Position numbers and translations under genes: made by a program
Notes under the pieces: model-generated
Databases searched by the model: none
What the model saw: the letters and a program-made list of their open reading frames with translations, nothing else
Told to the model about the DNA's origin: nothing
Origin: Alphaproteobacteria bacterium
GTDB taxonomy: Bacteria > Pseudomonadota > Alphaproteobacteria > Geminicoccales > Geminicoccaceae
Length of the DNA: 52,707 nt
Reading direction: 5' to 3'
Assembly: GCA_027045875.1 (NCBI GenBank)
Contig: JALUAG010000053.1
Span: forward strand, 1 to 52,707
Part shown: positions 24,129 to 41,061 of the stretch, piece after piece
Layout: every line of letters starts with the position of its first letter
How positions within the stretch are numbered: position 1 is the first letter of the stretch

Positions 24129-24145
24129 ATTCTCCTCCATGGTCG

Positions 24146-24164
24146 CGATCCGTTGGTCGGATCG
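24146..24164 (-). repeat. Inverted repeat in the ftsZ leader
   Basis: CGATCCG, a 5-base spacer and CGGATCG form a perfect 7-bp stem 18 bases upstream of the ftsZ start, immediately before its GGAGGA. It could be an operator or a translational hairpin; no T run follows. Confidence 0.4.
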
Positions 24165-24233
24165 TCCTCCTCGAGACCGGCCGCGGGCAGTCGACCGGCA
24201 GGTGGTCACAGGCGGGGCGCCGGGCCCCTCCGT

Positions 24234-25532
24234 TCAGAAATTCTGTTCGACCCAGCGCGCGAGGCGCGCGAGCCAGCCGGCCAGCACCGGCATCTCCCTT
24301 CCGTCTCCCCAGCTCAGTCCGTCGTCGTCACCGCTGGCGAGTGACAACGCACCACAGGTGGCCGCGCAGCAGGGCTCGGTCTCCGTGCCGTGACGGCCGT
24401 GCACGAGATCGGGACGGCCGCGGCGGGCCGGAATGCCGAAGATCTCCTCGGCCAGCTCCTCGAGACCGTCGAGCTGACTGGCGCCGCCGGTCAGCACCAC
24501 CGAACGGGGCGGCCGGCGCTCGAACAGCTCCCAGTTGGCGCGGATCTTGTCCTGGACGAAGTCGAGGATCTCCTCCACCCGCGCCCGCACGATGTGGGTG
24601 ATCCGTGCCCGGTCCACTTCTCCGGTGGCGCTTTCCGGGCGCTCGCCGACGAGCGGGAAGGTGATGCGGGCATCGGCATCGCAGGCCCGCCGCACGACGC
24701 CGCCGTGGAGGGCCTTCAGCCGTTCGGCGTAGCTGCGGCCGGTGGACAGGCCGTAGGCGAGATCGTTGGTGACGTGGATGCCGCCGTAGGGCACCTGATC
24801 GAGACAGAGCAGCCGGCCGTCCGCGAAATGGGCGAAGCCGGTGACGCCGCCTCCGAGGTCGAGCACCAGACAACCGCGCTCCATCTCGTCCTCGGTCAGG
24901 CAGGCGATGCCGGCGGCATAGGGTGCGGCGACGATCTCGGTCACCCGCACGTGGCAGCGCTCGAGACAGGCGAGGAGATCGCGCAGCGGCCGCCTGCGCG
25001 CGCGCACCACGGTGGCCAGCATCTCCAGCCGCTCGCCCCGGGCCCCCCGCGGATCCCTCAAGGGCCGACCGCCGTCGATGGCGACCGCCACGGGAACCGT
25101 GTGCAGCACCTCGTGCGCCTCGTCGGCGGCCGCCGCCCGGGCGTCCACGAGCAGCGCCCGGAGCTGTTCGTCGCGCACCGTGGCGCCGCCCAGATCGTGG
25201 GTCACCCGGACCTGCCTAGAGGCCGGCTTGCCTGCGTTGGTTACGATCACTACCTCGCGCACCGGATCGCCGGCCTGCTCCTCGGCCTCGTGCAGGGCGG
25301 CGGCGAGGGAGGTCTCGGCGGCGTCCACGTCCACCACCTCGCCGCCCTTGAAGCCTTCCGCCGCCTGGTAGCCGCGTCCCAGCAGGGTGAAGCCGTGGGA
25401 GGAGCGCGGCCGGGCGATGAAGCAGGAGATCTTGGTGGTGCCGATGTCGAGGACCGTGACCGGCGTGGTGCGTATGCCTTCGAGGGCGGGTCTCACGCCC
25501 CTGCCGGCGCGGTCCAGGGTCCGCGTGCTCAT
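24234..25532 (-). CDS. ftsA: Cell division protein FtsA
   Basis: 432 residues, an actin-like ATPase. PHOSPHATE1 VLDIGTTKISCFIARP (about residues 28-43), PHOSPHATE2 GCLVLDLGGGVTGFAHFADG near 210 and the adenosine motif VVLTGGASQLDGLEELA near 355 are all visible. The C-terminus ends GWLARLARWVEQNF, an amphipathic helix that should anchor FtsA to the membrane. It tethers FtsZ. The start overlaps the ftsQ stop by 4 bp. Confidence 0.97.
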   Translation of the reverse strand: MSTRTLDRAGRGVRPALEGIRTTPVTVLDIGTTKISCFIARPRSSHGFTLLGRGYQAAEGFKGGEVVDVDAAETSLAAALHEAEEQAGDPVREVVIVTNAGKPASRQVRVTHDLGGATVRDEQLRALLVDARAAAADEAHEVLHTVPVAVAIDGGRPLRDPRGARGERLEMLATVVRARRRPLRDLLACLERCHVRVTEIVAAPYAAGIACLTEDEMERGCLVLDLGGGVTGFAHFADGRLLCLDQVPYGGIHVTNDLAYGLSTGRSYAERLKALHGGVVRRACDADARITFPLVGERPESATGEVDRARITHIVRARVEEILDFVQDKIRANWELFERRPPRSVVLTGGASQLDGLEELAEEIFGIPARRGRPDLVHGRHGTETEPCCAATCGALSLASGDDDGLSWGDGREMPVLAGWLARLARWVEQNF

Positions 25533-26371
25533 GCTGCTTTCCTCCCTGGTTGGCGCAGGATCTGCCTGTTCGGCCGCAGCACGATCCAGCCCGGGCTGCG
25601 CAGATCGATGGCATCGATCGCCCGGTCCAGGATGCGGTTCCGTCGCTGTTCGCGAGCCAGCAGGCGCCAGGCCCGTTCGGCCGCCGTCTCGGGCAGGCGG
25701 ACGGTGGTGCGGCCGTCGATGAAGACGTCCCAGCGCCGCGCCCCCACGAGCGCGGCACCGGTCACCCGGCGGGCGAGTTCGGGCTCGCCCGCGAGGAGAC
25801 GCCGGAGATCGGGAACACGTGCCGGTGCCTCGGCACCGTAGAGGAGGGGCAGATCACGGAAGGGGCGGAGATCCTCGACCGGAATCGTCTCGCCGTCCCT
25901 GCCGATCAAGCGCAGGCCCTCCGGGCCCCGCCAGAGGGCGGTCGGACGATGTTCTTCGAGGCGGACGAGGAGGGTGGAGGGGAGCAGACGCTTGACAGTC
26001 GCACGACGGACCCAGGGCAGACGTTCCAGCCGCTCACGCACGGCCTGCAAATCAACCGTAAGTATATATTGCCCTTCGTAGGAGGCAAGGGTCCGCTGCA
26101 GCTCCCGGCGGGGCGTCCGCTCGCGCCCCTGCGTAAGGATATCGCGAACCCTAAGTCCCAAGCGGTCCTCCGCCGACCGGAGCTTTCCGCGCAAGGTGTC
26201 GTAGGCGGCGGCGGTCAGCCCTGCCTCAACCATGAGGTATGTCGTACCAGAGAGTGCGGCGAGCGCCAACGCCAGAATCGCGAACCGGCGCAGGGGGGCG
26301 ATCCAGCGCGGCCGCGGTGGGCGGCGCAGGTTCGCTCGGCTGCGGCGCAGGAGGCGGTTCACCTGTCGCAT
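25529..26371 (-). CDS. ftsQ: Cell division protein FtsQ
   Basis: 280 residues. A basic cytoplasmic N-terminus of about 30 residues precedes one membrane segment (FAILALALAALSGTTYLMVEAG), then a POTRA domain (LGLRVRDILTQGRERTPRRELQ) and the FtsQ/DivIB domain with LERLPWVRRATVKRLLPSTLLVRLEEHRP. FtsQ links the cytoplasmic ring to the FtsW-FtsI synthase. The gene overlaps the ddl stop by 13 bp. Confidence 0.95.
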   Translation of the reverse strand: MRQVNRLLRRSRANLRRPPRPRWIAPLRRFAILALALAALSGTTYLMVEAGLTAAAYDTLRGKLRSAEDRLGLRVRDILTQGRERTPRRELQRTLASYEGQYILTVDLQAVRERLERLPWVRRATVKRLLPSTLLVRLEEHRPTALWRGPEGLRLIGRDGETIPVEDLRPFRDLPLLYGAEAPARVPDLRRLLAGEPELARRVTGAALVGARRWDVFIDGRTTVRLPETAAERAWRLLAREQRRNRILDRAIDAIDLRSPGWIVLRPNRQILRQPGRKAA

Positions 26372-27267
26372 CGCGCGTCCTCCACCAGCCGCACCACGAG
26401 ATCGGCGAAGGACATGCCGCAGTGGGCGGCCTGCTCGGGGGCCAGCGACAGGGGCGTCATGCCGGGCTGGGTGTTGACCTCGAGGATGTAGAGCCCGTCC
26501 TCCCCCTCCTCGGGGTCGTAGCGGAAATCCGCCCGGCTCAGGCCCCGGCAGCCGAGGGCGGCATGGGCGGTGGCGGCGGCCTCCATGACCCGGTCGTAGA
26601 CGGCCTCCGGCAGGGGCGCCGGCAGCAGATGGCGGGCGACGTTGGGGGTGTATTTGGCGCGATAGTCGTAGAACCCCTCCTCGGCCGTGATCTCGGTCAC
26701 CGCCAGCGGCTCGCCGCCGAGCACCGAGCAGGTCAGCTCGCGCCCCGGCACGTAGCGTTCGGCCAGCATGCGGGCGTCGGGATCGACATCGTTGCGGCCG
26801 CGCAGCTCGGAGAGCTCCGGGTCGCGGACGATCACCACCCCGACGCTCGACCCCTCGGCCGCCGGCTTGGCGACGAAGGGCGGCGGAAAGGGCGGCCTCT
26901 CGATCAGCTCGGCGAAACGGATCTCCCGCCCCTCGGGGATCCGCAGACCGGCGTCGGCGAAGATGCGGCGGGCCATCGGCTTGTCCATCGCCAGCGCCGA
27001 GGCCAGCACCCCCGAATGGGTATAGGGGATGCCGAGCAGATCGAGCAGCCCCTGCACCCGTCCGTCCTCGCCGAAGCGCCCGTGGAGGGCGTTGAAGACG
27101 ACGTCCGGACGCAGCGCCGCGAGCACCTCGGGCAGATCGCGGCCGGCGTCGATCCGGCTCACCCGGTAGCCGCGCTCCTCGAGGGCGGCGGCGCAGGCGG
27201 CGCCGCTCGTCAGCGACACCTCGCGCTCGGCGGACATGCCGCCCATCAGCACCGCGACATGGGTCAT
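26359..27267 (-). CDS. ddl: D-alanine--D-alanine ligase
   Basis: 302 residues. The ATP-grasp pattern is complete: VAVLMGGMSAEREVSLTSG at the N-terminus, FNALHGRFGEDGRVQGLL near 58, YTHSGVLASALAMDKPMAR, PFVAKPAAEGSSVGV in the central domain and LEVNTQPGMTPLSLAPEQA near the C-terminus. It makes the D-Ala-D-Ala dipeptide that MurF adds to the precursor. The B-type position between murB and ftsQ is the common alphaproteobacterial location. Start overlaps the murB stop by 4 bp. Confidence 0.97.
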   Translation of the reverse strand: MTHVAVLMGGMSAEREVSLTSGAACAAALEERGYRVSRIDAGRDLPEVLAALRPDVVFNALHGRFGEDGRVQGLLDLLGIPYTHSGVLASALAMDKPMARRIFADAGLRIPEGREIRFAELIERPPFPPPFVAKPAAEGSSVGVVIVRDPELSELRGRNDVDPDARMLAERYVPGRELTCSVLGGEPLAVTEITAEEGFYDYRAKYTPNVARHLLPAPLPEAVYDRVMEAAATAHAALGCRGLSRADFRYDPEEGEDGLYILEVNTQPGMTPLSLAPEQAAHCGMSFADLVVRLVEDARCDR

Positions 27268-28181
27268 GCCGCCTCCTTGCGCGCCGCCGCGCGTCCGACG
27301 CGATGGATCTCCCAGGACAGGCTGATGCCGGAATGGGCCTTGACGCGCGCCCGCACCATCTCGCCCAGCTCCTCGATCTCGGCGGCGGTGGCGCCGCCCG
27401 TGTTGACGAGGAAGTTGCAGTGCTTCTCCGACACCATCGCCCGGCCGTGGCGGAGGCCGCGACAGCCGGCGGCGTCGATCAGCCGCCAGGCCTTCCCGCC
27501 CGGCGGGTTCTTGAAAGTGCTGCCGCCGGTGGCCACCCGCAGCGGCTGGCTGCGTTCGCGCTCCTCGCGGATGGCGGCCATGCGGCGGGTGATCTCCTGC
27601 GGATCGCCGGCCGCCAGCGCGAAGGCGGCGCGCAGCACGATCCAGCCTTCCGGCAGGCGGCTCGCCCGGTAGGAGAGGCCGAGCTCGTCGCGGGCGAGGC
27701 GGTGCAGGCGGCCCTCGTTGTCCAGCGCCTCCGCCCAGATCAGACGGTCCGCCGTCTCGCCGCCGAAGGCCCCCGCGTTCATGCGCACGGCGCCGCCGAC
27801 CGTCCCCGGGATGCCGATCATGAACTCGAGGCCGGACAGCCCGGCACGGGCGGCGGTGGCCGCCACCCGCTGGTCGAGGGCGCCGGCGCCGGCGATCAGC
27901 GTCCGCCCGTCGATGGCGATCCGGGCGAGGGGGCCGCCGAAGCGCACCACCACGCCCGCGATGCCGCCGTCGCGGACGAGCAGGTTGGAGGCCACGCCCA
28001 TGGGCAAAAGCGGCAGATCCTCGGGACGGGCGGCGACGAAGGACGCCAGATCCTCGGCATCGGCCGGCTGGAACAGGACGCTCGCGGGCCCGCCGACCCG
28101 GAACCAGGCGATCGGCGCCAGCGGCACCATCCGCCGCAGCCGGCCGCGCACCGGCGGCAGACGGAGTTCGGCGCCGCTCAT
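27264..28181 (-). CDS. murB: UDP-N-acetylenolpyruvoylglucosamine reductase
   Basis: 305 residues. The FAD-binding PCMH domain shows [19 protein letters not shown] and [18 protein letters not shown], then [26 protein letters not shown]. The proton-donor serine lies in [12 protein letters not shown] and a late glutamate in SWEIHRVG. It reduces enolpyruvyl-UDP-GlcNAc to UDP-MurNAc with NADPH. The gene overlaps murC by 4 bp. Confidence 0.97.
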
Positions 28182-29602
28182 CGTGCCACCTCCGCCCCGA
28201 GCAGGGCGCCCAGCCGGTCGGGCAGAGCGTGCGCCCACTGGGTGATGGTGCCGGCGCCGAGACAGACCACGAGATCGCCGGCCCGCGCCCGTTCGGCGAG
28301 GAAGGGTGCCAGATCCTCCTCGCCCGCGATGGCGTGCACCTCGCGCTGGCCGTGGGCGCGCAACCCCTCGACCAGGGCGTCGCGATGGACCCCTTCGATG
28401 GGCGTCTCGCCGGCAGCGTGCACGGGGGCCACCAGCACGATGTCGGCATTGACGAAGCAGGTGCAGAAGTCCTCGAACAGATCCCGCAGCCGCGTGTAGC
28501 GATGGGGCTGGACGACGGCGATCACCCGGCCCTCGGGGTTGGCGGCCCGGGCGGTGCGCAGCACGTTGCGGATCTCCACCGGATGATGGCCGTAGTCGTC
28601 GATCACGGTGATCCCCGCAACCCGGCCGGTGCGGGTGAAGCGCCGCTGCACGCCCTCGAGACCGGCCAGGGCGCGGCGCATCGCCTCGGGCGCGATGCCG
28701 AGCTCGCGGCCCACCGCCAGCGCGGCCAGGGCGTTGGTGACATTGTGCAGCCCGGGCATGGCCAGATGCACGTCCTCGAGCACCCGCTCCTCGCCGGCGG
28801 GGTCCCGCATCACCACCGTGAAATGCTCGCCGGTGGCATCGAGACGGGGATCGAGGGCGCGGACGTCCGCCTGCGGGTTGAAGCCGTAGGTCACCACCCG
28901 CCGGTCGGTGATGCGCGGCAGCATGGCCTGCACCTCGGGATGGTCGAGGCACAGCACCGCCACGCCGTAGAAGGGGAGCTGTTCCACGAAGGCGAGGTAG
29001 GCGCTGCGGACGGCGTCGAAGGAGCCGTAATGTTCCATGTGCTCGGGGTCGATGTTGGTGACGACGGCGATGGTCGCCGGCAGGCGCAGGAAGCTGCCGT
29101 CGCTCTCGTCCGCCTCCACCACCATCCAGTCGCCGGCGCCGAGGCGGGCGTTGGTCTTGTAGGCGTTGATGATGCCGCCGTTGATCACCGTCGGGTCGAG
29201 GCCGCCGGCATCGAGAATGGCCGCCACCATCGAGGTGGTGGTGGTCTTGCCGTGGGTACCGGCCACCGCCACCGACCATTTGAAGCGCATGAGCTCGCCC
29301 AGCATCTCGGCCCGCGGGACGATCGGCAGGCGGCGCGCCCGCCCCTCCACGAGCTCGGGATTGTCGGCACGGACCGCGGAGGAGACGACGAGGAGGCGCG
29401 CCTCGCCCAGGTTCTCGGGACGGTGCCCGATGGCGATGGGGATGCCCAGTTGCCGCAGCCGCTGGACGTTGCGTCCCTCGCCGATGTCCGAGCCCTGCAC
29501 CCGGTAGCCGAGATTGTGCAGGATCTCGGCGATGCCGCTCATGCCGATGCCGCCGATGCCGACGAAATGGATGGGTTCGACCGCGAAGGGGAGGAGCTTC
29601 AT
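28178..29602 (-). CDS. murC: UDP-N-acetylmuramate--L-alanine ligase
   Basis: 474 residues. A Rossmann-like N-terminal domain with [17 protein letters not shown], the ATP-binding motif [13 protein letters not shown] near 110, GTNIDPEH-type [11 protein letters not shown] near 190 and the C-terminal [16 protein letters not shown] identify MurC. It adds L-alanine to UDP-MurNAc, the first step of stem-peptide synthesis, in the cytoplasm. Overlaps the murG stop by 4 bp. Confidence 0.97.
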
Positions 29603-30687
29603 CGTGCCCCCTCCCGGTCCAGCATCGCCAGCACCGCGCCGGCCAGGCGCTCGGCGGCGTCGGTCACCGCCATGGCCGCGGCGGCCTCGCTCATGCGCTC
29701 GAGGGCCGCGGGATCGCCGGCCAGTTCCTCGAGCATCGCGGCGAGGCGCTCGGCGGTGAACGCGTCCTCCGGCAGCATCCGCGCCGCGCCGGCACGCACG
29801 AGGCGCTCGGCATTGGCCCGCTGATGGTCGTCGGCGGCGTGAGGGTAGGGAACCAGGAGCGCCGGGCGCGCGAGGTGGAGGAGCTCGGCCACGGTGGAGG
29901 CGCCCGCGCGGCTGACCACGAGATCGCTCGCCGCCAGCCGTTCCGCGACGTCCTCGAAGAAGGGGGCGAGCTCGGCCTCGACGCCGAGGCGGGCGCAGCG
30001 TTCGTCGACCACCGCCAGCCGTTCGGGTCGGCACTGCATGGCGAGGCGCAGGCGGCGCCGCAGCGCGGCCGGCAGGCGGGCCACCGCCTCGGGCACCACC
30101 TCGCCGAACACCCGCGCGCCCTGGCTCCCGCCCAGGACGAGGAGGCGGAACGCCTCTCCCGTTCCGGGCCGCCGCGGGGTGATCGCGGCGAAACCGGGTC
30201 GCACGGGATTGCCGGTGACGACGCCCCGGCCCGCCAGCGCCGGCGGCAGCCCTTCAGTGTCGGCGAAGGTGAGGGCGAGGGTACGGGCGAAACGCGCGGC
30301 CAGGCGGTTGGCGCGGCCGAGGACGGCGTTCTGTTCGTGGAGCAGCACCGGCAGGCGGGCGAGGGCGGCGGCGAGCACCGCCGGCACCGAGGCGTAGCCG
30401 CCGAAGGCGGCGGTGGCCGAGGGGCGCAGCCGACCGATCAGCCGCCGGCTCTGCAGGGTGCCGCGGGCGATGGCGAGGAGGGCGCCGAGGCCGCGGCGCA
30501 GGCCGCCCGCCGGGCTGGCGGCGCGGATCTCGTAGACCTCGTTCTCGCCGCCGAGATAGCGGGCCCCGCGTCGGTCGGTGACGAAGGCCACGCGCTGGCC
30601 GCGCGCCCGCAACGCGCGGGCGGTGGCGAGGGCGGGAAACACGTGGCCGCCGGTGCCGCCGGTGGCGATCAGCACGGGGCCGCTCAC
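29599..30687 (-). CDS. murG: UDP-GlcNAc:lipid I transferase MurG
   Basis: 362 residues from a GTG start overlapping the ftsW stop by 4 bp. The GT28 pattern is clear: [20 protein letters not shown] (residues about 7-26), [14 protein letters not shown] near 125, [20 protein letters not shown] near 190, and [35 protein letters not shown] near 270. It adds GlcNAc to lipid I to form lipid II at the inner face of the membrane. Confidence 0.97.
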
Positions 30688-31796
30688 GGCGCACCTTCCA
30701 GCCGCGCCCCGACCCGCGTCAGGGCCAGCAGCATGCCCATGCCGATGGCGAGCGCCAAGAGGGAGGAGCCGCCGTAGCTCACGAAGGGCAGGGTCATGCC
30801 CTTGGTGGGCAGCAGGTTGAGGTTGACGGCGATGTTGACGAGGGCCTGGAGGCCGAACTGGGCGAGCAGACCGACCGCGGCGAGCTGCACGAAGCGGTCC
30901 CGGGCCTCGTAGGCGCGCCACAGGCCGCGCAGCACGACGAAGCCGAACAGCATGAGCACGAGGAGGGCGGCGATGGCGCCGAACTCCTCGGCCAGGGTCG
31001 CGAACACGAAGTCCGAATGGGCCTCGGGAAGGTAGAACTTGACGACACCCTCGCCGGGACCGCGGCCGAACAGGCCGCCCGAGCTCACCGCCGACAGGGA
31101 GGCTTCCACCTGATAGCTCTCCCTGCTCGGGTCGAGGAAGTCGTCGATCCGCGTCTGCACGTGGGGAAAGACGAGATAGGCGCCGTAGAGGCCGGCTCCC
31201 GCCAGCCCGGCGAGGCCGCCGATGAGCAGCCAGGGCAGACCGGCCACGAAGAGCTGGATGCCGAACACCGCCGCCACCAGGGCGGTCATGCCGAGGTCCG
31301 GCTGGATCACCAGCAGCAGGAGGACGAGGCCGCAGAGCGCCGCCGCCTCGGGCGCGCCGCGCAGGCCCGGTCGCCGCGCCAGCAGCCAGCCGGTGACCAC
31401 CACCAGTGCGGGCTTCACGAATTCGCTCGGCTGCAGCAGCAGGCCGCCCACCGACACCCAGCGCCGCGCCCCCTTGATCTCGGCGGCGACGAAGGGGGTC
31501 AGCAGCAGCAGCAGGCCGAAGCCCGCGAGCAGCAGCAGCGCCACCCGCAGGATGCCCCGCGGTGCCAGCAGCGAGGTGCCGAGCAGCAGGAGGATGGCGG
31601 GCAGCAGGAAGGTGATGTGCTTGACGATGAACCGGGTCTCTTCGTAGCCGAGGCGCCGGGCGATGGGCGGGCTCGAGGCGAAGACCATGACCACGCCCAC
31701 CAGCGCGATCACCAGGAGCCCGCTCAGCAGCGCCCGGTCGAGGGTCCACCACCAGTTGGCCAAGAGGCCGCGGTCGGTGCGCGCGAAGGGGCTCAC
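30684..31796 (-). CDS. ftsW: Peptidoglycan glycosyltransferase FtsW
   Basis: 370 residues with about ten membrane segments. SEDS family marks include PSEFVKPALVVVTGWLLA near 145, YQVEASLSAVSSGGLFGRGPGEG near 240, PEAHSDFVFATLAEEFG near 265 and the C-terminal LPTKGMTLPFVSYGGSS. It polymerises glycan strands at the septum together with the FtsI transpeptidase. It overlaps the murD stop by 4 bp. Confidence 0.96.
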   Translation of the reverse strand: MSPFARTDRGLLANWWWTLDRALLSGLLVIALVGVVMVFASSPPIARRLGYEETRFIVKHITFLLPAILLLLGTSLLAPRGILRVALLLLAGFGLLLLLTPFVAAEIKGARRWVSVGGLLLQPSEFVKPALVVVTGWLLARRPGLRGAPEAAALCGLVLLLLVIQPDLGMTALVAAVFGIQLFVAGLPWLLIGGLAGLAGAGLYGAYLVFPHVQTRIDDFLDPSRESYQVEASLSAVSSGGLFGRGPGEGVVKFYLPEAHSDFVFATLAEEFGAIAALLVLMLFGFVVLRGLWRAYEARDRFVQLAAVGLLAQFGLQALVNIAVNLNLLPTKGMTLPFVSYGGSSLLALAIGMGMLLALTRVGARLEGAP

Positions 31797-33178
31797 GGGG
31801 CACCTCCCCCGGCGGGCGCGGCGAGACCGGCCACGAGCTCGGCGAAGGCGCGCCCGCGGGCCTCGAAATCCGCGAACTGATCGAAGGAGGCGCAGGCCGG
31901 AGCGAGCAGTACGACCGGCTCCGCTTCCTCCTCCTCGCGGGCCGCGCGGGCGGCGGCGGCCACGGCGCGGGCCAGATCCCCCACATCCTCGGCCGGCACC
32001 CGACCGTCGAGGAACCGGGCCAGCTCATCCGCCGCCTCGCCGATCAGGAAGGCCCGGCGCACGTTGCCGAGATGGGGTGCGAGGGCGTCGAAGCCGCCGG
32101 GCTTCGGCCGCCCGCCGGCGATCCAGTAGACGGCGGGGAAGCTCGCGAGGCTGCGGCCGGCGGCGGCCGGATTGGTGGCCTTGCTGTCGTCGACGAAGCG
32201 GATGCGCCCGAGACGGCCCACCTCCCGCATGCGGTGCGGCAGGCCGGGGAAGCTCGCGAGGGCACGGGCCGCGGTGGCCGGCGCCACGCCGAGGAGGCGG
32301 GCCGCGGCGTAGGCGGCGGCGGCGTTCTGCCGGTTGTGGACGCCGCGCAGCGAAGGCACCGTCGAGAGGTCGAGCACCTCCCGGATCCCCTCCGCGTCCT
32401 CCTCGCGCAGCCGGCCTTCCGGCACCCGGACGGCGGCCGGCTCGTCGCCGCCGCTCACCCGGATCACGCGCCGCCCGGTGGCTTCGAGCTCCGCGGCGAG
32501 GGCGCGGGAAACGGGATCGTCGACGGCGATCACCGCCGCATCCTCGGCCCGCTGGCCGGCGAAGATCCGACGCTTGGCGGCGATGTACGCCTCGAGGCCG
32601 CCGTGGCGGTCGAGATGGTCGGGCTCGAGGTTGAGCCAGACGGCGATCCGGCAGCGCAGGGAGCGGCAGAGATCGAGCTGGAAGGAGGACAGCTCGAGAA
32701 CCAGGATGTCGCCGCTCGCCGGCGCGAGATCGAAGACCGGCCGCCCGATGTTGCCGGCGGCCGTGGCGGGCAGACCGGCCGCCGTCAGGATGTGGGCGAT
32801 GAGGGCGGTGGTCGTGCTCTTGCCGTTGGTGCCGGTGACACCGACGAGCCGGGCTTCGGGATGGGTGGCGGCGAAGAGCTCGATGTCGCCGAGGATCGGC
32901 ACGCCGGCGGCGCGCGCGGCGGCGATCAGGGGGTGGGGCGCCGGATGGGTGAGGGGCACGCCCGGGCTGGGCACGAGAAGGGCGAGCCGCGCCACCTCTT
33001 CCGGTACACCGGGGCGGCCGCCGGTCTCGGCGACGGCACGGCGCAGGGTCGCGGGGTCGTCGTCGAACAGCACCGGCTCGGCGCCGCGGGCGAGGAGGGC
33101 GCGGGCGAGGGCGCGGCCGCTGCGGCCGAGGCCCAGCACCCCCACCGGTCTTCCCGTATACGCCCCGAGCCCCGGCAT
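31793..33178 (-). CDS. murD: UDP-MurNAc-L-Ala--D-Glu ligase
   Basis: 461 residues. VGVLGLGRSGRALARALL at the N-terminus, ATP-binding VTGTNGKSTTTALIAHIL near 110, LNLEPDHLDRHG near 180, and FVDDSKATNPAA followed by YWIAGGRPKPG near 330-355 match MurD. It adds D-glutamate to the growing stem peptide. Four bases separate it from mraY, one of the few non-overlapping joints in the cluster. Confidence 0.97.
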   Translation of the reverse strand: MPGLGAYTGRPVGVLGLGRSGRALARALLARGAEPVLFDDDPATLRRAVAETGGRPGVPEEVARLALLVPSPGVPLTHPAPHPLIAAARAAGVPILGDIELFAATHPEARLVGVTGTNGKSTTTALIAHILTAAGLPATAAGNIGRPVFDLAPASGDILVLELSSFQLDLCRSLRCRIAVWLNLEPDHLDRHGGLEAYIAAKRRIFAGQRAEDAAVIAVDDPVSRALAAELEATGRRVIRVSGGDEPAAVRVPEGRLREEDAEGIREVLDLSTVPSLRGVHNRQNAAAAYAAARLLGVAPATAARALASFPGLPHRMREVGRLGRIRFVDDSKATNPAAAGRSLASFPAVYWIAGGRPKPGGFDALAPHLGNVRRAFLIGEAADELARFLDGRVPAEDVGDLARAVAAAARAAREEEEAEPVVLLAPACASFDQFADFEARGRAFAELVAGLAAPAGGGAP

Positions 33179-33182
33179 CGGC

Positions 33183-34271
33183 CTAGCGCAGCTTCAGGGT
33201 GGAGAGGCCGATCAGCGCCAGGATCGAGGCGATGATCCAGAAGCGGATGACGATGGTCGGTTCCTCCCAGCCCTTCTTCTCGAAATGATGGTGCAGCGGC
33301 GCCATGCGGAAGACACGGCGGCCGGTGAGCTTGAACGAGGCCACCTGGACCATCACCGACACCGCCTCGAGAACGAACAGGCCGCCGATGATGGCGAGCA
33401 CGAGCTCGTGCTTGGCGGCCACCGCCACCGCGCCGAGGGCCCCGCCGGTGCTGAGCGATCCGGTGTCGCCCATGAACACCATGGCGGGCGGCGCGTTGAA
33501 CCAGAGAAAGCCCAGCGAGGCGCCGACCATGGCGCCGGCGAAGACGGCGAGCTCGCCGGTGCCGGCGACGTAGGGAATGCCCAGATAGGCGGCGAAGATG
33601 GCGTTGCCGGAGAGATAGGCGATGAGGGCGAAGCAGCCGGCGGCGATCATCACCGGCACGATGGCCAGCCCGTCGAGCCCGTCCGTCAGATTGACGGCGT
33701 TGGAGGCGCCCACCATGACGAAGGCGCCGGCCAGCGGGAAGAAGGCGCCGAGAGGAATGTAGAGCTCCTTGAAGAAGGGCACGGCGATGCTGGAGCCCAG
33801 CGGTTCGGGGGTGAGCTTCGCGATCACCCAGGCGGCGGCGAGGGCGATCACCGACTGGGCGAGCAGCTTGACCCGACCGGAGATGCCGTTCGAGGAGCGT
33901 TTCCTGAGCTTGCTGTAGTCGTCGAAGAAGCCGATCATCCCGAAGCCGAGGGTCACCGCCAGCACCACCCAGACGAAGGGATTGGTGAGATCGACCCACA
34001 GCAGGGTGGCGACGGTGAGGGCGAGGAGGATCAGCACCCCGCCCATGGTGGGCGTGCCCTTCTTGCGGAGCAGATGGTCCTCGGGTCCGTCCTCGCGGAT
34101 GGGCTGGCCGTCGGGCTGCTGGCTCCTGAGCCAGCGGATGATCATCGGACCCAGGAGAAAGCTCACGAACAGCGCCGTCATCACCGCGCCGCCGGTGCGG
34201 AAGGTGAGATAGCGGAAGACGTTGAAGGCGCCGACGTACTCCGACAGCGGAAAGAGGAGATGATAGAGCAT
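33183..34271 (-). CDS. mraY: Phospho-N-acetylmuramoyl-pentapeptide transferase
   Basis: 362 residues with about ten membrane segments. Family motifs: [13 protein letters not shown] near 69, [16 protein letters not shown] with the active-site aspartates near 115, [16 protein letters not shown] near 190 and [15 protein letters not shown] near 325. It transfers phospho-MurNAc-pentapeptide to undecaprenyl phosphate, making lipid I. It is 4 bp after murF. Confidence 0.97.
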
Positions 34272-34275
34272 CGCT

Positions 34276-35661
34276 TCAGAGGCTCCCTTCCGCTGCCGCG
34301 GCTTCGAGTTCCTTCACGATCGACCCCATACCGCTCGTCAGCGATCCCTTGACCAGCAGCACGTCGCCGGGGCGCAGTCGCGCACGGAGCAGGCGGCCGA
34401 GCCCGGCGGCTTCCTCGGCGTGCCCGCCGCGCCGTTCCGGGGGCAGCGCGTCCCGCAGTCGAGCCATCAGCGGACCGCAGGTGAATACCGAAGAGACCCC
34501 GGCCTCGGCCAGCGGCGCCGCGAGCTCGGCATGCAGCCGCGGGGCGTCCTCCCCGAGTTCGGCCATGTCGCCGAGCGCCGCGAGACGCCGTCCCGGCATC
34601 AGCCCGAGGAGCGCGATGGCGGCCCGCATCGAGGCCGGATTGGCGTTGTAGCTCTCGTCCAGCAGCAGGAAGGAGCCGCCGGCGACCGGCAGTCGCGCCC
34701 GCCGTCCGCGGCCGGGCAGGGCGTCGAGATCGGCGAGAGCGTGGGCCGCCCGTTCGGGATCGGCGCCCAGCGCCTCCACCGCCGCCAGCACGGCCAGGGC
34801 GTTGCTCACCCAGTGACGGCCGGGAAGCCCGATCTCGAACGCGACCCTCCTGCCGTTCGCGGTCGCGAGGACGCGGCTTCCCTGCGGCCCGCAGTCGGCT
34901 TCGAGGAGCCGCCAGTCCGCTTCCGCGCGGGTGCCGAAGGTGACGATGCGGGAGATGCCGGCGGCGGTCGCCCGCTCCGCCAGCAGGGGGAAATGCGGAT
35001 TGTCGGCCGGCAGCACCGCGCATTCCGGCGGTTCGCCGGCCTCGAAGATCTCCGCCTTGGCCTCGGCGATCGCCCGCTCGTCCGCGAAATAGGCGAGATG
35101 CGCACCCGCCACCCAGGTCACCAGCACCACATGGGGGCGCACGAGGGGCACCAGTTCGCGGATCTCGCCGGCGTGGTTCATGCCGATCTCGAACACCCCG
35201 AAGGCGGCCTCCCGCGGCAGGCGGGCGAGGCTCAGCGGCACGCCCCAGTGGTTGTTGTGGCTGGCGGCGCTCGCATGCGTCGGCGCCTGGATGCCCAGCA
35301 CCCGGCGCAGGGCCTCCTTGGTGCCCGTCTTGCCGACGCTGCCGGTGAGGGCCAGGATCCGCGCCCGGCTGCGCACCCGGGCGGCGCGGGCGAGCGCCTC
35401 GAGGCCGCGCTGGGTGTCGTCCACCGCCACCAGCGGCCCCGGTGCCTCCCGCTCGCCGGCCACCAGCGCCGCCGCAGCGCCGCGGGCGAAGGCGTCGGCG
35501 AGGAAGGCGTGGCCGTCGTGGCGCGGCCCCCTGAGGGCGATGAAGAGGTCGCCGGCGGCGAGGCTGCGGCTGTCGATGGACACGCCGCTCGCGCGCCATC
35601 CGCCGGGACCGCGGCCGCAGGTGGCGGCGAGCACCTCGGAGGCCTCCCACAGCGCCGTCAT
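34276..35661 (-). CDS. murF: UDP-MurNAc-tripeptide--D-Ala-D-Ala ligase
   Basis: 461 residues. The N-terminal domain has [18 protein letters not shown]; the P-loop is [14 protein letters not shown] near 112, in the [10 protein letters not shown] form usual in alphaproteobacteria; [19 protein letters not shown] and [15 protein letters not shown] follow; [15 protein letters not shown] marks the C-terminal domain. The late motif reads KGSLTSGMG, where many homologues have an arginine (KGSxxSRM). It joins the D-Ala-D-Ala made by Ddl. Overlaps the murE stop by 4 bp. Confidence 0.96.
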
Positions 35662-37112
35662 GCGCCCGCCTCCGCGGCCAGGTTCCGCAACACCTCGGCG
35701 TCGTCGAAGGGAAGCACCGCATCGCCGACGATCTGACCGGTCTCGTGTCCCTTGCCGGCGACCAGCAGCCCGTCGCCGGGGGCGAGCATCGACCAGCCGC
35801 GGGCGATGGCCTCGGCGCGATCGCCGATCTCCAGCGCCTCGCCGCGCATGCCCGCCAGGATCTCGGCGCGGATGGCCGCCGGATCCTCCGAGCGGGGATT
35901 GTCGTCGGTGACGATGACCACATCGGCCAGCCGCTCGGCGATCCGCCCCATCTCCGGGCGCTTGCCGCGGTCGCGGTCGCCGCCGCAGCCGAACGCCACG
36001 ATCAGCCGGCCGTCGATGTGGGCGCGAAGGGCGGTCAGGGCCTTTTCGAGGGCATCCGGGGTATGGGCGTAGTCGACGAAGGCCATCGCCCCGTCCTCGC
36101 GCCGGGCGATCCGCTGCATGCGTCCGGGCACGCCGTGGAGCCCGGTGAGGGCGTCGGTGGCCTGCCCGGCGGGAACCCCGCCGGCGATGGCGAGCCCGAG
36201 CGCGGCCAGCAGGTTGTGCGCCTGGAAGGGACCGAACAGGGGCAGGGTCGCGGACTGCGCATCGCCTCGCCAGGCGAAGGTGAGGGCGATGCCCTCGGGG
36301 CCGGGCACCAGCTCCAGCAGCACCAGGTCCTGGGCGGTGCGTCCGTAGTCGATCACCTCGATGTCGCGCTGTCGGCAGAGACGGGCGAGCTGATCGAATT
36401 CCGGCACGTCGGCGTTGAGCACCGCCCGGCCGCCGCTCCGCAGCAGCTCGGAGAACAGCCGCGCCTTGGCGTAGAAGTAGGCGTCGCGGTCGCCGTGATA
36501 GTCGAAATGGTCGCGGCTCAGGTTGGTGAAGGCGGCGGCGGTGATGGTGAGCCCGTCGAGCCGGTGCTGGGCGAGACCGTGGCTCGAGGCCTCCACCACG
36601 AGGCGGGTGATGCCGGCGTCGGCGAGGGCGGCGCAGGTCTCGTGCAGGCTCACCGGATCGGGCGTGGTGAGACGGGCTGCGATGCCGAGGCGGGCGGGCT
36701 CCACCCCGAGGGTGCCGAGACTGGCCGCGGGCAGCCCCGCGATCTCCCAGATCCGGCGCAGGAAGCTCGCCACCGAGGTCTTGCCGTTGGTGCCGGTGAC
36801 GGCCATCACCTGCTCCGGCTGGCGGTCGTAGAAGCGGGCCGCCATCTGCGCGAGGCGCCGCCGCGGGTTGTCGTCGATCACCAGGTTGACGCGCCCCGCC
36901 CAGCCCTCGATGGCGGTATCGCCGAGCACCGCGACGGCACCGCGGGCCACCGCGTCGGCGACGAACCGGCGGCCGTCGGCGCGGCTGCCGGGCAGGGCGG
37001 CGAACAGGTCGCCGGGACGGACGGCACGGCTGTCCGCGGTCAGGCCTCCGACCTCGCAATCCGGGGCTCCCAGGATGCGGACCCCCTCACCAGCCAGCGT
37101 CGAGAGCCGCAA
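35658..37112 (-). CDS. murE: UDP-MurNAc-L-Ala-D-Glu--meso-diaminopimelate ligase
   Basis: 484 residues. DSRAVRPGDLFAALPG marks the N-terminal domain, AVTGTNGKTSVASFLRRIWE the ATP site near 110, and VTDDNPRSEDPAAI near 403 carries the DNPR motif that selects meso-diaminopimelate rather than lysine. This predicts a Gram-negative DAP-type peptidoglycan and fits the lysA gene (a DAP decarboxylase) in the window. It overlaps the ftsI end by 26 bp. Confidence 0.97.
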   Translation of the reverse strand: MRLSTLAGEGVRILGAPDCEVGGLTADSRAVRPGDLFAALPGSRADGRRFVADAVARGAVAVLGDTAIEGWAGRVNLVIDDNPRRRLAQMAARFYDRQPEQVMAVTGTNGKTSVASFLRRIWEIAGLPAASLGTLGVEPARLGIAARLTTPDPVSLHETCAALADAGITRLVVEASSHGLAQHRLDGLTITAAAFTNLSRDHFDYHGDRDAYFYAKARLFSELLRSGGRAVLNADVPEFDQLARLCRQRDIEVIDYGRTAQDLVLLELVPGPEGIALTFAWRGDAQSATLPLFGPFQAHNLLAALGLAIAGGVPAGQATDALTGLHGVPGRMQRIARREDGAMAFVDYAHTPDALEKALTALRAHIDGRLIVAFGCGGDRDRGKRPEMGRIAERLADVVIVTDDNPRSEDPAAIRAEILAGMRGEALEIGDRAEAIARGWSMLAPGDGLLVAGKGHETGQIVGDAVLPFDDAEVLRNLAAEAGA

Positions 37113-38820
37113 GACCTTCCTCCATCTCGCCGGTCCGCCCGTTCATGGTCGGCACGATCTTGAGCCGCGCCGCGAAGCGCTGCCGGTCCGCCGGGCGCGA
37201 GGGCGGGACGCCGAGGATCGGGCCGATCCGATCGACGATTGTCGCCACCACGGGGGCCGCCGTCCAGCCTCCGTAGCGGAAGCCGAAGGTGCCCTTGTCG
37301 CCCTTGGGATCGTCGAGGGTGACGAGGACCAGATAGCGCGGATCCTCGATCGGGAAGAGGCCGACGAAGGAGGCGATCACCGCCTCGCCGTCGTAGCCGC
37401 GCCGGTTCCGGCCCGGCTTGTCGGCGGTCCCCGTCTTGCCGCCCAGCATGTAGGCGGGCAGTCGCGCCTTGGTTCCGGTTCCCTTCTCCACCACGAGCCA
37501 CATGAGCCAGCGCAGATCCCGCACCGTGCGGTCGGAGACGAGGCGCGGGCGCGCCGTCTCGGGCGGCCCGTCGCGGCGCAGGAGGGTGGGGGCGACCCGC
37601 GTTCCGTCGCCGGCGAGGCCGGCCACGGCGGCGGCGAAATGGAGGGGGGTCACGGCGATGCCGTGGCCGAAGGAGACGGTGGCGGAGACGATGTCGATCC
37701 AGCGGCGGGGCACCAGCGGCCGCCCGCGCTGGACCAGTTCGATCTCCAGCGGCCGGGTCATGCCGAGGCGCTCGAGAAAGGCCTGCTGCGCCGTCGCTCC
37801 GCCGGCGGCGAAGGCCATCTGCACGGTGCCGACGTTGGAGGAGAAGGCGAAGACCTCGGGCACGGTGAGCCAGCGTTTCTTGGCGTGGTCGTCGCCGATG
37901 CGGTTGCGGCCGATGCGGATCGGCTCGCGGGCGTCGAAGCGGTCGTAGAGGCCCACCCTGCCGGATTCGAGGGCCATCGCCGCGGTGATGACCTTGAACA
38001 GCGAACCCAGCTCGTAGACGCCGCCGGTGCAGCGGTTCTCGCGTTCCGCCGGGCGCGCCCGCTCGTAGGCGTTGGGATCGAAATCGGGCAGGCTCACGAG
38101 GGCGAGGAGTTCGCCGCTGCGCACGTCGAGGACGATGGCGCAGGCGCCGATGGCGCGGAAGCGGCGATAGGCCGCGAGCAGGCTGTCGCGCACCACCTCC
38201 TGCACCCGGACGTCGAGGGACAGGACGAGCGGTTCACCGCCGTCCTGCAGCCGCTCGTCCATCGCGAGCTCGATTCCCGCAAGCCCCTGGTTGTCGACGC
38301 CGGTGAAGCCGAGCACGTGGCTCGCGAGCCGGCGCTGGGGATAGAGGCGCCGCTGGGAGGAGCGGAAATCGAGGCCGGGCAGGCCGAGCTCGAGGACCGC
38401 CCGCTGTTCGGCCGGGGTGAGTTCCCGCTTGACCCAGGCGAAGCGGCGACCGACGGCGAAGCGCCGCTTGAGCTCCGCCGCCTCGACCCCGGAAAGCCGC
38501 GCCGCCAGGAGCTCGGCGGCCCGGTCCGGATCGGGCAGCCGGCTGGGGTCGGCGGTGAGGGAGAGCACCTGCACGTTGGTGGCGAGGAGGACGCCGTTGC
38601 GGTCGCGGATCTCCGCACGATCGGGCGTGCGCATGGCCGCCGTCGGACCGCCGCTGCCGGCCGCCATCCGCTCGCGCGAGCCGCCCGAGGCCATGTCGAC
38701 GAGGCGGATGCCGACACTGAGGAAGGCGAGGGCGAAGACGGCGGCGAGCAGGCGCACCCGCAGCCTTCCGCGCTCCACCATCGGCAGCCCTCCGCCGGCC
38801 GTCGTCCGCCCGCCGCTCAT
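37087..38820 (-). CDS. ftsI: Septal peptidoglycan transpeptidase FtsI (PBP3)
   Basis: 577 residues. A short cytoplasmic tail and one membrane segment (LLAAVFALAFLSVGIRLVDM) precede the dimerisation region (RDRNGVLLATNVQVLSL). Catalytic motifs are SLFK (nucleophile S273, K276; many homologues read STFK), SSN at 327-329 and KTG at 462-464. It cross-links septal peptidoglycan with FtsW. The start overlaps ftsL by 4 bp. A basic segment and low-complexity tail close the protein. Confidence 0.96.
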   Translation of the reverse strand: MSGGRTTAGGGLPMVERGRLRVRLLAAVFALAFLSVGIRLVDMASGGSRERMAAGSGGPTAAMRTPDRAEIRDRNGVLLATNVQVLSLTADPSRLPDPDRAAELLAARLSGVEAAELKRRFAVGRRFAWVKRELTPAEQRAVLELGLPGLDFRSSQRRLYPQRRLASHVLGFTGVDNQGLAGIELAMDERLQDGGEPLVLSLDVRVQEVVRDSLLAAYRRFRAIGACAIVLDVRSGELLALVSLPDFDPNAYERARPAERENRCTGGVYELGSLFKVITAAMALESGRVGLYDRFDAREPIRIGRNRIGDDHAKKRWLTVPEVFAFSSNVGTVQMAFAAGGATAQQAFLERLGMTRPLEIELVQRGRPLVPRRWIDIVSATVSFGHGIAVTPLHFAAAVAGLAGDGTRVAPTLLRRDGPPETARPRLVSDRTVRDLRWLMWLVVEKGTGTKARLPAYMLGGKTGTADKPGRNRRGYDGEAVIASFVGLFPIEDPRYLVLVTLDDPKGDKGTFGFRYGGWTAAPVVATIVDRIGPILGVPPSRPADRQRFAARLKIVPTMNGRTGEMEEGLAALDAGW

Positions 38821-39206
38821 CGCCGCTCCCGCCCGCTGTCGAAGGCGAAGGTGACGACGGGCTTGGCGCGCAGCAGCACCTCGCGACCCGAGGGCAGCGG
38901 CACCGGCACCGGCCGGGCCGCGAATTCGAGCTGGTCGCGGGTGCCGATACTGTCGAGCTCGACGATGCGGGTGGCGCTCGCCGGCTCCAGGCCGAGCTCG
39001 GCGGCGAGGCGGGCGAGCCGCTCCGGTCGGGTGAGGTAGGCCCAGCTCGCGCGCAGGCTCCGCAGCCGCCAGCGGGTCTCGACGATGGCACGGTCGATGG
39101 CGGCCCGCTGCAGCTCCAGATTGCGGACCGCGTATTTGAGCTGGTAGACGGCCCCCACCGCCAGCAGCAGCAGCGCCAGGAGCACGATGGCCGGCCGCGA
39201 GATCAT
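38817..39206 (-). CDS. ftsL: Cell division protein FtsL
   Basis: 129 residues. One membrane segment (AIVLLALLLLAVGAVYQL) is followed by a periplasmic coiled-coil (LELQRAAIDRAIVETRWRLRSLRASWAYLTRPERLARLAAELGL in parts), the usual FtsL layout. Sequence conservation of this family is low, so position between rsmH and ftsI is the main support. It bridges FtsQ and FtsI. Overlaps rsmH by 4 bp. Confidence 0.85.
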   Translation of the reverse strand: MISRPAIVLLALLLLAVGAVYQLKYAVRNLELQRAAIDRAIVETRWRLRSLRASWAYLTRPERLARLAAELGLEPASATRIVELDSIGTRDQLEFAARPVPVPLPSGREVLLRAKPVVTFAFDSGRERR

Positions 39207-40159
39207 GCCGCCCGCCTCCGGGCCGCCGGCTCCGTTTCGCCCTCCTCGCGCTCGCGCTTGCGGGCGACCCGCAGCCGGGCCGAACGGGCGCGCGGATTGC
39301 GGGCCACTTCCTCGGCGCTCGGACGCAGCACCCGCCGGCCACAGGCGACGAGTCGCGCCCGCGGTCCGGGGAGCTCGGGACGATGGCGCGAACCGCCCGG
39401 GATCCGGCCGGCGTGGCGGTCGAGGAAGCGTTTGACGATCCGGTCCTCGAGGGAGTGGAAGGACACCACCGCCAGCCGGCCGCCCGACACCAGGACCCTG
39501 AGCGCCGCCTCGAGGCCGCGTTCGAGCTCGCCGAGCTCGTCGTTGACGGCGATGCGCAGGGCCTGGAAGGTGCGGGTGGCGGGATGGATGCGCCGCCCCC
39601 GACCGCCCACCGTCCGGGCGACCAGCTCGGCCAGCTCGGAGGTGCGGGTCAGGGGGCGTGTGCGGCGGCGGGCGACGATCGCCCGGGCGATGCGCCGGGC
39701 CGCCGGTTCCTCGCCGTAGCGGCGGAGGATGTCCGCGATCTGCCGCTCGTCGAGCCGGGCCAGCAGATCGGCGGCGGTGGGGCCTTCGCCGCCCATGCGC
39801 ATGTCGAGCGGGCCGTCCTTGGCGAAGGCGAAGCCGCGCGTCGCGTCCTCGAGCTGGAAGGAGGAGAGGCCGAGGTCGAACACCACGCCGTCGACGGCAG
39901 CGATGCCGGCTTCGGCGAGCAGGCGGTCGAGCCCGCCGAAGCTGCCCGCCAGCATGGTGAAGCGGGGCTCGGCGGCGGCGAGTTCGCGGCCCCGTCGCAC
40001 GGCCTCCGGATCGCGGTCGATCCCCACCACCCGGCAGCCGGCGGCGAGGAGGGCGCGACTGTAGCCGCCGCCGCCGAAGGTCGCATCGACGAACAGGCCG
40101 TGCGGCCGGGGATCGAGGGCGGCGACGGCCTCCGCCAGCATCACCGGGACATGGCTCAT
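39203..40159 (-). CDS. rsmH: 16S rRNA (cytosine1402-N4)-methyltransferase
   Basis: 318 residues. The SAM-binding motif FVDATFGGGGYSRALLAAG (residues 23-41), DLGLSSFQLEDATRGFAF near 100, HPATRTFQALRIAVNDEL near 205 and VVSFHSLEDRIVKRFL near 240 are diagnostic. A basic tail closes it. The ATG at 40159 has GGAGGG 9 bases upstream. It modifies C1402 in the ribosomal P site. It is the first gene of the cluster here: mraZ, usually in front of it, is absent. Confidence 0.97.
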   Translation of the reverse strand: MSHVPVMLAEAVAALDPRPHGLFVDATFGGGGYSRALLAAGCRVVGIDRDPEAVRRGRELAAAEPRFTMLAGSFGGLDRLLAEAGIAAVDGVVFDLGLSSFQLEDATRGFAFAKDGPLDMRMGGEGPTAADLLARLDERQIADILRRYGEEPAARRIARAIVARRRTRPLTRTSELAELVARTVGGRGRRIHPATRTFQALRIAVNDELGELERGLEAALRVLVSGGRLAVVSFHSLEDRIVKRFLDRHAGRIPGGSRHRPELPGPRARLVACGRRVLRPSAEEVARNPRARSARLRVARKREREEGETEPAARRRAA

Positions 40160-40175
40160 GCGCGGGCCCTCCGAG

Positions 40176-40184
40176 TTATCCACA
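40176..40184. promoter_or_regulatory. DnaA box next to the rsmH ribosome site
   Basis: TTATCCACA, the perfect consensus, reads on the + strand 17 bases upstream of the rsmH start and directly beside the GGAGGG. DnaA binding here could affect dcw expression. Confidence 0.7.
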
Positions 40185-40513
40185 GGCCGGGGAGGGCGAA
40201 AGGCGGGCGCCGGCCGGCCGGCGGACGCGGAACGACGAGGTGAGAACGACGGGTGTCGCCCGACAGTGAGCGAAAGTATCGAAAGAACACAGATCCGAAC
40301 TCGCCTCGACGAATGCGCATGGATCCCCTGGCCGAAACGCAAGCGTTCTCAGCACAAGCAAGTAATGAAGGAAAAAGTGACAGCGCCGATCACGGACGTA
40401 GTCACGCCGCAGGTCCGATCTCATTACCGCAACTTGACGCGTCCGCCGTGCAACAGGCCACTTCTCTCGCGAAAACCGCCGGAATTTGGTTGCCAGCGTT
40501 GCGCGTCGGTTAC

Positions 40514-40542
40514 ACTCTACGGATGGCATTCGGGCCGGTCAA
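40514..40542 (-). promoter_or_regulatory. Predicted sigma-70 promoter of the dcw cluster
   Basis: TTGACC (40542-40537), a 17-bp spacer and TAGAGT (40519-40514) on the minus strand. It is placed downstream of rnpB and reads toward rsmH, with a start near 40507. Confidence 0.65.
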
Positions 40543-40624
40543 GAGAGGACAATTGAGAAATCTCGTCAAAAGCCGTTCAATAACCTGCTGATAAATTGCG
40601 AAAAACCATTCCCTGGAACATTTC

Positions 40625-40633
40625 TGTGGATAA
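40625..40633. promoter_or_regulatory. Second DnaA box
   Basis: TGTGGATAA on the + strand is the reverse complement of the perfect DnaA box. It lies 39 bases from the rnpB 3' end and about 80 bp upstream of the predicted dcw -35. Confidence 0.65.
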
Positions 40634-40671
40634 ACCTTGCGCTTCCGGTGGAAAGAGATAGGAGAGCATGG

Positions 40672-41061
<390 letters not shown>

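Follow-up and report, generated by a model that had tools for sequence, protein, structure and literature searches.

Conserved DnaA boxes at the head of the dcw cluster in Geminicoccaceae, a family that lacks mraZ

Introduction

The usual switch gene of the dcw cluster is mraZ, and a cluster that begins directly at rsmH raises the question of what acts at its control region. Such a cluster is found in an alphaproteobacterium of the family Geminicoccaceae (GCA_027045875.1, contig JALUAG010000053.1), within a stretch of 52,707 nucleotides that was analysed as a whole and is referred to here as the window. The original prediction for this DNA was that two perfect DnaA boxes in the leader of the cluster lie in the place of mraZ and could couple division and wall synthesis to replication. 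We have examined this proposal in the window and its own genome, in the 31 genomes of the family to which that genome belongs, and in other alphaproteobacteria.

Results

The leader separates rnpB from the dcw cluster

Read along its minus strand, the window has rnpB, then a gap and then rsmH (Table 1). The length of 512 bp originally given for the leader was right, but rnpB had been overlooked as its upstream neighbour, so the leader is the whole of the gap between these two genes. Profile matches gave the order rsmH, ftsL, a penicillin-binding transpeptidase in the place of ftsI, murE, mraY and murD, continued by ftsW, murC, murB, ddl, ftsQ, ftsA and ftsZ (murG lay outside the profile set); the transpeptidase, ftsW and ftsQ matched below the NCBIfam cut-offs, and the frame in the place of murF matched no profile. 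With 57.4% G+C against 71.6% for the window the leader is A+T-richer, as had been stated, and among 512-bp stretches taken at 32-bp steps along the window, the eight with the highest A+T content all overlapped it. The two perfect boxes at its ends, in opposite orientation, had also been described correctly: exact TTATCCACA occurs twice in the window, both times in the leader. This pair is not due to chance, because the 9-mer is present only five times in the 3.53 Mb genome and two of these copies are here.

Table 1. Features at the head of the dcw cluster, in positions of the 52,707-nucleotide window.
Feature	Position	Strand	Basis or remark
rnpB, RNase P RNA class A	40673-41056	-	RF00010, 285 bits; upstream of leader
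Upstream (5′) DnaA box, exact TTATCCACA in direction of dcw transcription	40625-40633	-	91 bp upstream of -35
-35 hexamer TTGACC, predicted dcw promoter	40537-40542	-	motif search and family leaders
-10 hexamer TAGAGT, 17-bp spacer	40514-40519	-	motif search and family leaders
Predicted 5′ untranslated leader, ~347 nt	40160-40506	-	start site inferred from promoter
Downstream (3′) DnaA box, exact TTATCCACA, opposite orientation	40176-40184	+	3 bp before rsmH Shine-Dalgarno
Shine-Dalgarno GGAGGG of rsmH	40167-40172	-	read by eye
rsmH, first dcw gene	39206-40159	-	TIGR00006, E 1.3e-87
dcw cluster, rsmH to ftsZ	22674-40159	-	profile matches

The leader is apparently non-coding. A hidden coding sequence was rejected, as no constant counterpart was found for the longest sense ORF of this leader (117 codons), and substitutions between the leaders of genomes G000 and G002, counted in the longest sense frame common to both, numbered 23, 26 and 36 by codon position, without clear periodicity. 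A structured RNA was likewise rejected, as the leader folded no better than its shuffles (z 0.19). An Rfam scan of the window at gathering thresholds matched rnpB alone, and no intrinsic terminator was found at positions 40100-40700 (shuffles gave a mean of 1.2). As a separate observation on rsmH, the match to this gene in genome G042 (C1:3096684-3097628) contains one in-frame TGA.

MraZ and its operator have been lost from the family

The MraZ profile PF02381 matched none of the 31 family genomes, our own included; in other families it did match 24 of 29 genomes, and it matched 7 of 14 controls, including E. coli, B. subtilis and Caulobacter. Nor did an HMM built from eight MraZ proteins match anything upstream of rsmH in the 30 family genomes searched. 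The absence of an mraZ-like frame, first noticed at the cluster itself, extends in this way to the rest of the genome and to its relatives. Arrays of at least three TGGG/CCCA units were found in none of the 28 complete family leaders (described below), our own among them as originally noted; of 71 mraZ-bearing regions, 43 had such an array. The named loci in this comparison are the best 80 of 592 matches in one search and not a balanced sample. The dcw promoter region of our genome thus has neither of the two marks of MraZ regulation, an mraZ gene and a TGGG-repeat operator. MraZ and its TGGG operator have been lost in Geminicoccaceae, a loss of which we found no report in the open-licence PMC literature.

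DnaA boxes are conserved at both ends of the leader

Complete leaders were available from 28 of the 31 family genomes. G001, which reaches a contig end without an rsmH start, and G026 and G028, whose leaders are cut (310 bp without a box and 376 bp with one TTCTCCACA), were dropped, and the leader of G007 was trimmed by hand to 560 bp owing to Ns at rnpB. A box with at most one mismatch was present in 24 of the 28 leaders, against a mean of 1.47 and a maximum of 5 in 100 dinucleotide shuffles, and an exact box in 18 of 28, where the same number of shuffles gave a mean of 0.05 and a maximum of 1. The original prediction had been staked in part on conservation of the boxes in close relatives, and in this respect it has held.

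In total the leaders contain 54 sites, compared with 1.5 in shuffles, and 53 of them fall into two groups at the ends of the leader, with a single site between. The 5′ group is found in 24 leaders and, apart from one extra site, reads in the direction of transcription. The 3′ group, again with at most one mismatch, is found in 14 of 28 leaders and lies within 38 bp of the rsmH start, positions relative to rsmH being counted from the first aligned residue (1 to 3) with an error of up to 6 bp; in G017 and G023 the 3′ box has the other orientation, and both leaders also carry a weaker inverted one. Control DNA from further upstream (26.1 kb) held no exact box and one near match. Within their final 60 nt, 17 of the 28 leaders had the core TGTGGA, which occurred in 2 of 136 control stretches inside leaders. 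At the rsmH start this core is invariant in all six leaders of genus g5, in an alignment whose preceding ~200 columns are scrambled, and comparison of G000 with G002 likewise showed the core kept and the preceding stretch scrambled. Four family genomes (G003, G004, G005 and G016), which lack mraZ as the others do, are box-less in the leader even when one mismatch is allowed. In G016, whose leader is box-less, hemE was seen upstream of rnpB and rsmH within ~1.2 kb (C33:77962-81094).

The upstream box keeps its distance to a predicted promoter

Our own leader contains one predicted promoter, TTGACC-17-TAGAGT (40542-40514), where 0.1 were expected from shuffles. A sigma-70-like promoter (TTGACC or TTGACT with a suitably spaced -10) was found in 26 of the 28 family leaders, a count for which a strict pattern was applied first and a looser one where it failed, with the shuffle control made on our own leader only; none was found in the leaders of G008 and G015. 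In the 22 leaders with both elements the upstream box lies 71-73, 82-84 or 90-91 bp from the -35 hexamer (sd 8.4), one box and one promoter having been chosen where there were several (G009, G011, G013, G019, G021, G024 and G025). The distance between rnpB and the box (sd 28.6 in 21 leaders) and that between the box and rsmH (sd 40.5) are more variable. Since the spacing to the -35 hexamer is held while the others drift, the upstream box is tied to the dcw promoter and not to rnpB. The stepwise distances resemble helix turns; a Rayleigh test for helical phasing gave p values of 0.0013, 0.005, 0.023 and 0.09 for periods of 9.5, 10, 10.5 and 11 bp, a weak and period-dependent test with one value for each of 11 genera and p uncorrected. 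What is expected of a DnaA-regulated promoter was thus found on two counts, a box of consensus quality near the predicted promoter and its conservation at a fixed place in relatives, in 24 of 28 leaders and in steps from the -35.

A hairpin with the invariant loop CUUGCCCGG was seen in genera g5 and g11, close to the point where the dcw leader RNA is predicted to start, with compensatory changes in 4 of its 14 pairs (L021:2767-2815 (-), L022, L023, L024, L025, L028 and L026:1143-1191 (+)). A covariance model of it (R1) matched only these seven source sequences among 45 sources, and nothing in our own genome.

The family encodes DnaA and carries the box at other replication-linked loci

DnaA of our own genome has its N-terminal, ATPase and helix-turn-helix domains, and the match of its DNA-binding domain to PF08299 (106 bits) supplied a further feature expected where DnaA regulates a promoter. 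The DnaA consensus of C. crescentus, [TC][TCG][AG]TCCACA (PMC2877005), occurs in 24 of the 28 family leaders. Two full-strength DnaA matches were noticed in G004 (C1:569 and 3389956), together with a weak match in five copies of a 571-codon frame that is perhaps a mobile element.

Across the 31 genomes the 10-mer TTATCCACAG has 92 sites, of which 23, assigned by hand from the positions of rsmH, sit in the dcw leader. The other 69 represent 62 non-leader loci, the neighbours of which were clustered by BLAST and one per cluster named by Pfam. Among them were the gene for class II (B12-dependent) ribonucleotide reductase in 8 genomes (L273:1984-3000, L308:804-1463 and related loci), the NDUFA12 gene in 10 genomes, in several of which it lies beside the ribonucleotide reductase gene, and RPA-type plasmid initiators in 8 genomes, including our own (L312:1-960, C102:29800-30759); the last loci are probable plasmid or chromid origins. 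Ribonucleotide reductase genes have been proposed as DnaA targets elsewhere (PMC8203912). The recurrent neighbours, ribonucleotide reductase and the plasmid initiators, suggest from their annotation that the motif is linked to replication in this family, as expected of DnaA.

Boxes also precede mraZ in other alphaproteobacteria

Of 71 mraZ-bearing alphaproteobacterial loci (the named ones drawn from the best 80 of 592 matches), 9 had an exact box within 300 bp upstream of mraZ, where 0.15 were expected with a maximum of 1. With one mismatch allowed the excess was smaller (13 against 3.57 expected, maximum 8), and the stretches between mraZ and rsmH (35.8 kb) held no exact box and one near match. 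Three of the nine exact boxes are in reverse orientation (G043, L061 and L116). Fourteen boxed loci of other families were examined for a promoter. The box lies 133 bp upstream of a TTGAC -35 hexamer in L059, L060 and L097 and 123 bp upstream of one in L092, and behind each of these hexamers come CCCAT repeats like those of MraZ operators; elsewhere its distance to the promoter is 139 bp (L109), 140 bp (L090), 92 bp (L116), 65 bp (L085) or 39 bp (G043), and in L061, L083, L114, L123 and G041 no promoter could be read. Because exact boxes also precede mraZ in these 9 of 71 loci, the upstream box is, on this comparison, probably an older and patchily kept input that predates the loss of mraZ.

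Judged at the region upstream of rsmH, mraZ is apparently also missing from ten loci outside the family (L054, L055, L058, L069, L071, L072, L074, L082, L089 and L096), which include Methylobacterium, Methylorubrum and Devosia; L106 was too short for a judgement. None of these ten, within the same best 80 of 592 matches, has the pair of boxes, and L058, L071 and L072 have a single near box each. That of L072, TTGTCCACA, reads in the direction of transcription; it is located 145 bp ahead of rsmH and ~35 bp past the start of the 3′ motif of rnpB, and so resembles the upstream box of the family. DnaA sites are not an obligatory substitute for MraZ, because four family genomes are box-less and mraZ-less species elsewhere lack the pair. 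The boxes and the absence of mraZ that had been brought together in the original prediction are therefore both real, but the idea that the one took the place of the other has to be amended in view of these same loci and of the boxes in front of mraZ itself.

Other roles for the leader

The leader could be a titration or reactivation site of the datA or DARS kind, which would mainly tune DnaA activity and lie next to dcw incidentally. Boxes of high affinity, as judged by sequence, at a fixed position and with an A+T-richer spacer would suit such a role, but there are mostly one to three boxes per leader, in two groups hundreds of bp apart, and the upstream box is spaced to the promoter. Known datA and DARS sites have close-set boxes and sites for IHF and Fis, whereas the boxes of our own leader are 449 bp apart. 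We regard this role as unlikely.

Much less probable still is that the upstream box serves rnpB, for example as a roadblock at which bound DnaA would stop transcription of that gene: it does lie 26-138 bp behind rnpB in 21 leaders, but it is the distance to rnpB that drifts and the distance to the dcw -35 that is held. We give slightly less weight again to the notion that the inverted boxes act as RNA, pairing in a read-through transcript so as to hide the ribosome-binding site. In 16 leaders compared, 8 to 10 of 10 positions could pair with G-U allowed, and the mismatches by themselves would still allow pairing; against this, the predicted promoter is downstream of the upstream box in all 22 leaders with both, so that the transcript would not contain that box, and the folding of our own leader was unremarkable.

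An origin of replication at the leader, whether the chromosomal origin or a relocated one, was considered in view of the fixed boxes and the A+T-richness and was rejected on the parS, KOPS and skew data, which leave it the least probable role of all and agree with the earlier view that a full origin was unlikely. The parS and KOPS motifs were used in what we take to be their usual forms. In the form searched, parS was found in 14 of the 31 genomes, on one contig with hemE in six, on separate contigs in seven, and in G007, where no hemE was found. It lies at most ~130 kb from hemE in all six genomes with both on one contig: G000 (parS C106:4051, hemE C106:11433), G002 (C9, 97.9 and 99.9 kb, hemE 89.6 kb), G006 (0.497-0.502 Mb, hemE 0.575, rsmH 1.080), G004 (3.74 Mb, hemE 3.86, rsmH 2.51), G015 (C8, 261-264 kb, hemE 270.7 kb) and G021 (C5, 19.6 and 24.2 kb, hemE 12.5 kb). 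By contrast, the rsmH contig is without parS in 12 of the 14 parS genomes, and in G006 and G004 parS is 0.58 and 1.2 Mb from rsmH.

Strand bias pointed the same way. Neither skew nor KOPS switches at rsmH in G002, and in G019, which has near boxes, rsmH (2.05 Mb) lies inside an unbroken run of plus-strand sites from 1.19 Mb (sites listed to 2.56 Mb). Among these sites the G019 switch falls at ~1.10-1.19 Mb, which does not coincide exactly with hemE (1.50 Mb), and a search of this genome for parS gave no match. In G006 the GC skew was positive in all four stretches sampled between hemE and rsmH, which is what an origin close to hemE would give, but AGGGNAGGG occurs there 5 times on the plus and 4 times on the minus strand; in G004 sampled skew becomes positive between 3.75 and 4.0 Mb, the KOPS counts being too few to place the switch, and three near boxes lie in the region upstream of hemE. 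In favour of an origin at the leader, besides its own composition and boxes, our genome has no box with at most one mismatch within 8 kb around hemE, and the hemE contig of G002 shows no clear switch of strand bias either. However, no strand-bias switch was seen at rsmH in G002 and G019, no parS lay close to rsmH in the 14 genomes that have it, and the two widely separated boxes of our own leader do not form an array.

Discussion

We conclude that the leader is the dcw promoter region followed by a long 5′ untranslated region, with DnaA as its probable regulator, a reading that we hold with reasonable though not high confidence and that draws on conservation and spacing. The best reading of the family history is that the dcw promoter would have kept its DnaA sites, in many genera doubled, after the loss of MraZ and its operator, an older DnaA input being retained. 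On this view DnaA would occupy the upstream box, some 105-125 bp ahead of where transcription is predicted to begin. In many genera it would also occupy a second, inverted box, which lies ~440 bp further downstream, at the ribosome-binding site of rsmH; both boxes might then act jointly by looping, or the downstream box might be a roadblock. We infer from these patterns the binding of DnaA, the existence of a direction to its effect (repression or activation), looping and cell-cycle timing. That DnaA couples the division and wall genes to replication is accordingly the part of the original prediction that conservation favours most, in qualified form. A stronger version, in which the replication initiator took over dcw and, by looping promoter and leader between two inverted sites, sets transcription, is possible but we think it rather doubtful. 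In the open-licence PMC literature we found no account of DnaA controlling a dcw cluster from its head (mraZ or rsmH) in alphaproteobacteria.

B. subtilis has MraZ. In vivo its DnaA binds the ftsL promoter (Goranov 2005, cited in PMC8203912), and the operon with ftsL also holds rsmH (PMC11019786), so the likeness to our predicted case is DnaA at the promoter of an operon with both genes. The differences are that B. subtilis belongs to another phylum, that the family studied here has neither the MraZ gene nor its operator and holds the upstream box relative to the promoter, and that in many of its genera the rsmH start carries a second, inverted box. Counting against a DnaA reading, RsmH and PbpB levels in B. 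subtilis are wild-type-like when replication initiation is arrested (PMC11019786), and in E. coli transcription of ftsZ has been shown to be unaffected by the DnaA boxes that lie ahead of the gene, inside ftsQA (PMC8203912). Closer by descent, C. crescentus DnaA binds the ftsZ promoter and has a regulon of ftsZ, mipZ, gcrA and podJ (PMC8203912). This resembles our prediction in that an alphaproteobacterial DnaA acts on division genes, but the predicted target in the family is the start of the entire dcw cluster, and mraZ, mraW and dcw do not occur in the main text of PMC2877005. Regulators other than DnaA may also act at the family leader, since by analogy CtrA sites have been reported upstream of mraZ in S. 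meliloti (PMC4414408).

A long dcw 5′ untranslated region, predicted here at ~347 nt, is also known as UpsM in R. sphaeroides, where it measures 268 nt (PMC5089854). At that locus mraZ is present, with a strong terminator and an sRNA, whereas no terminator-like site was found in our own leader; that paper calls the long dcw leader exclusive to Rhodobacteraceae and does not contain the word DnaA. Lineage-specific loss of mraZ with dcw kept is shared with the multicellular Neisseriaceae (PMC9395523), in which the loss is linked to down-regulation of dcw, again with no occurrence of DnaA in that paper.

Conserved DnaA sites at the dcw control region suggest, as far as sequence comparison goes, a direct link between the copying of DNA and division. 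If a DnaA loop does form, initiation-competent DnaA would set the transcription of wall and division genes, a hard-wired connection of replication with division that would be derived from an older alphaproteobacterial DnaA input. In a family without MraZ, with DnaA sites that are few, conserved and well placed, the question can be tested through one or two 9-mers, and the enrichment of exact boxes upstream of mraZ elsewhere would extend the test to tractable species.
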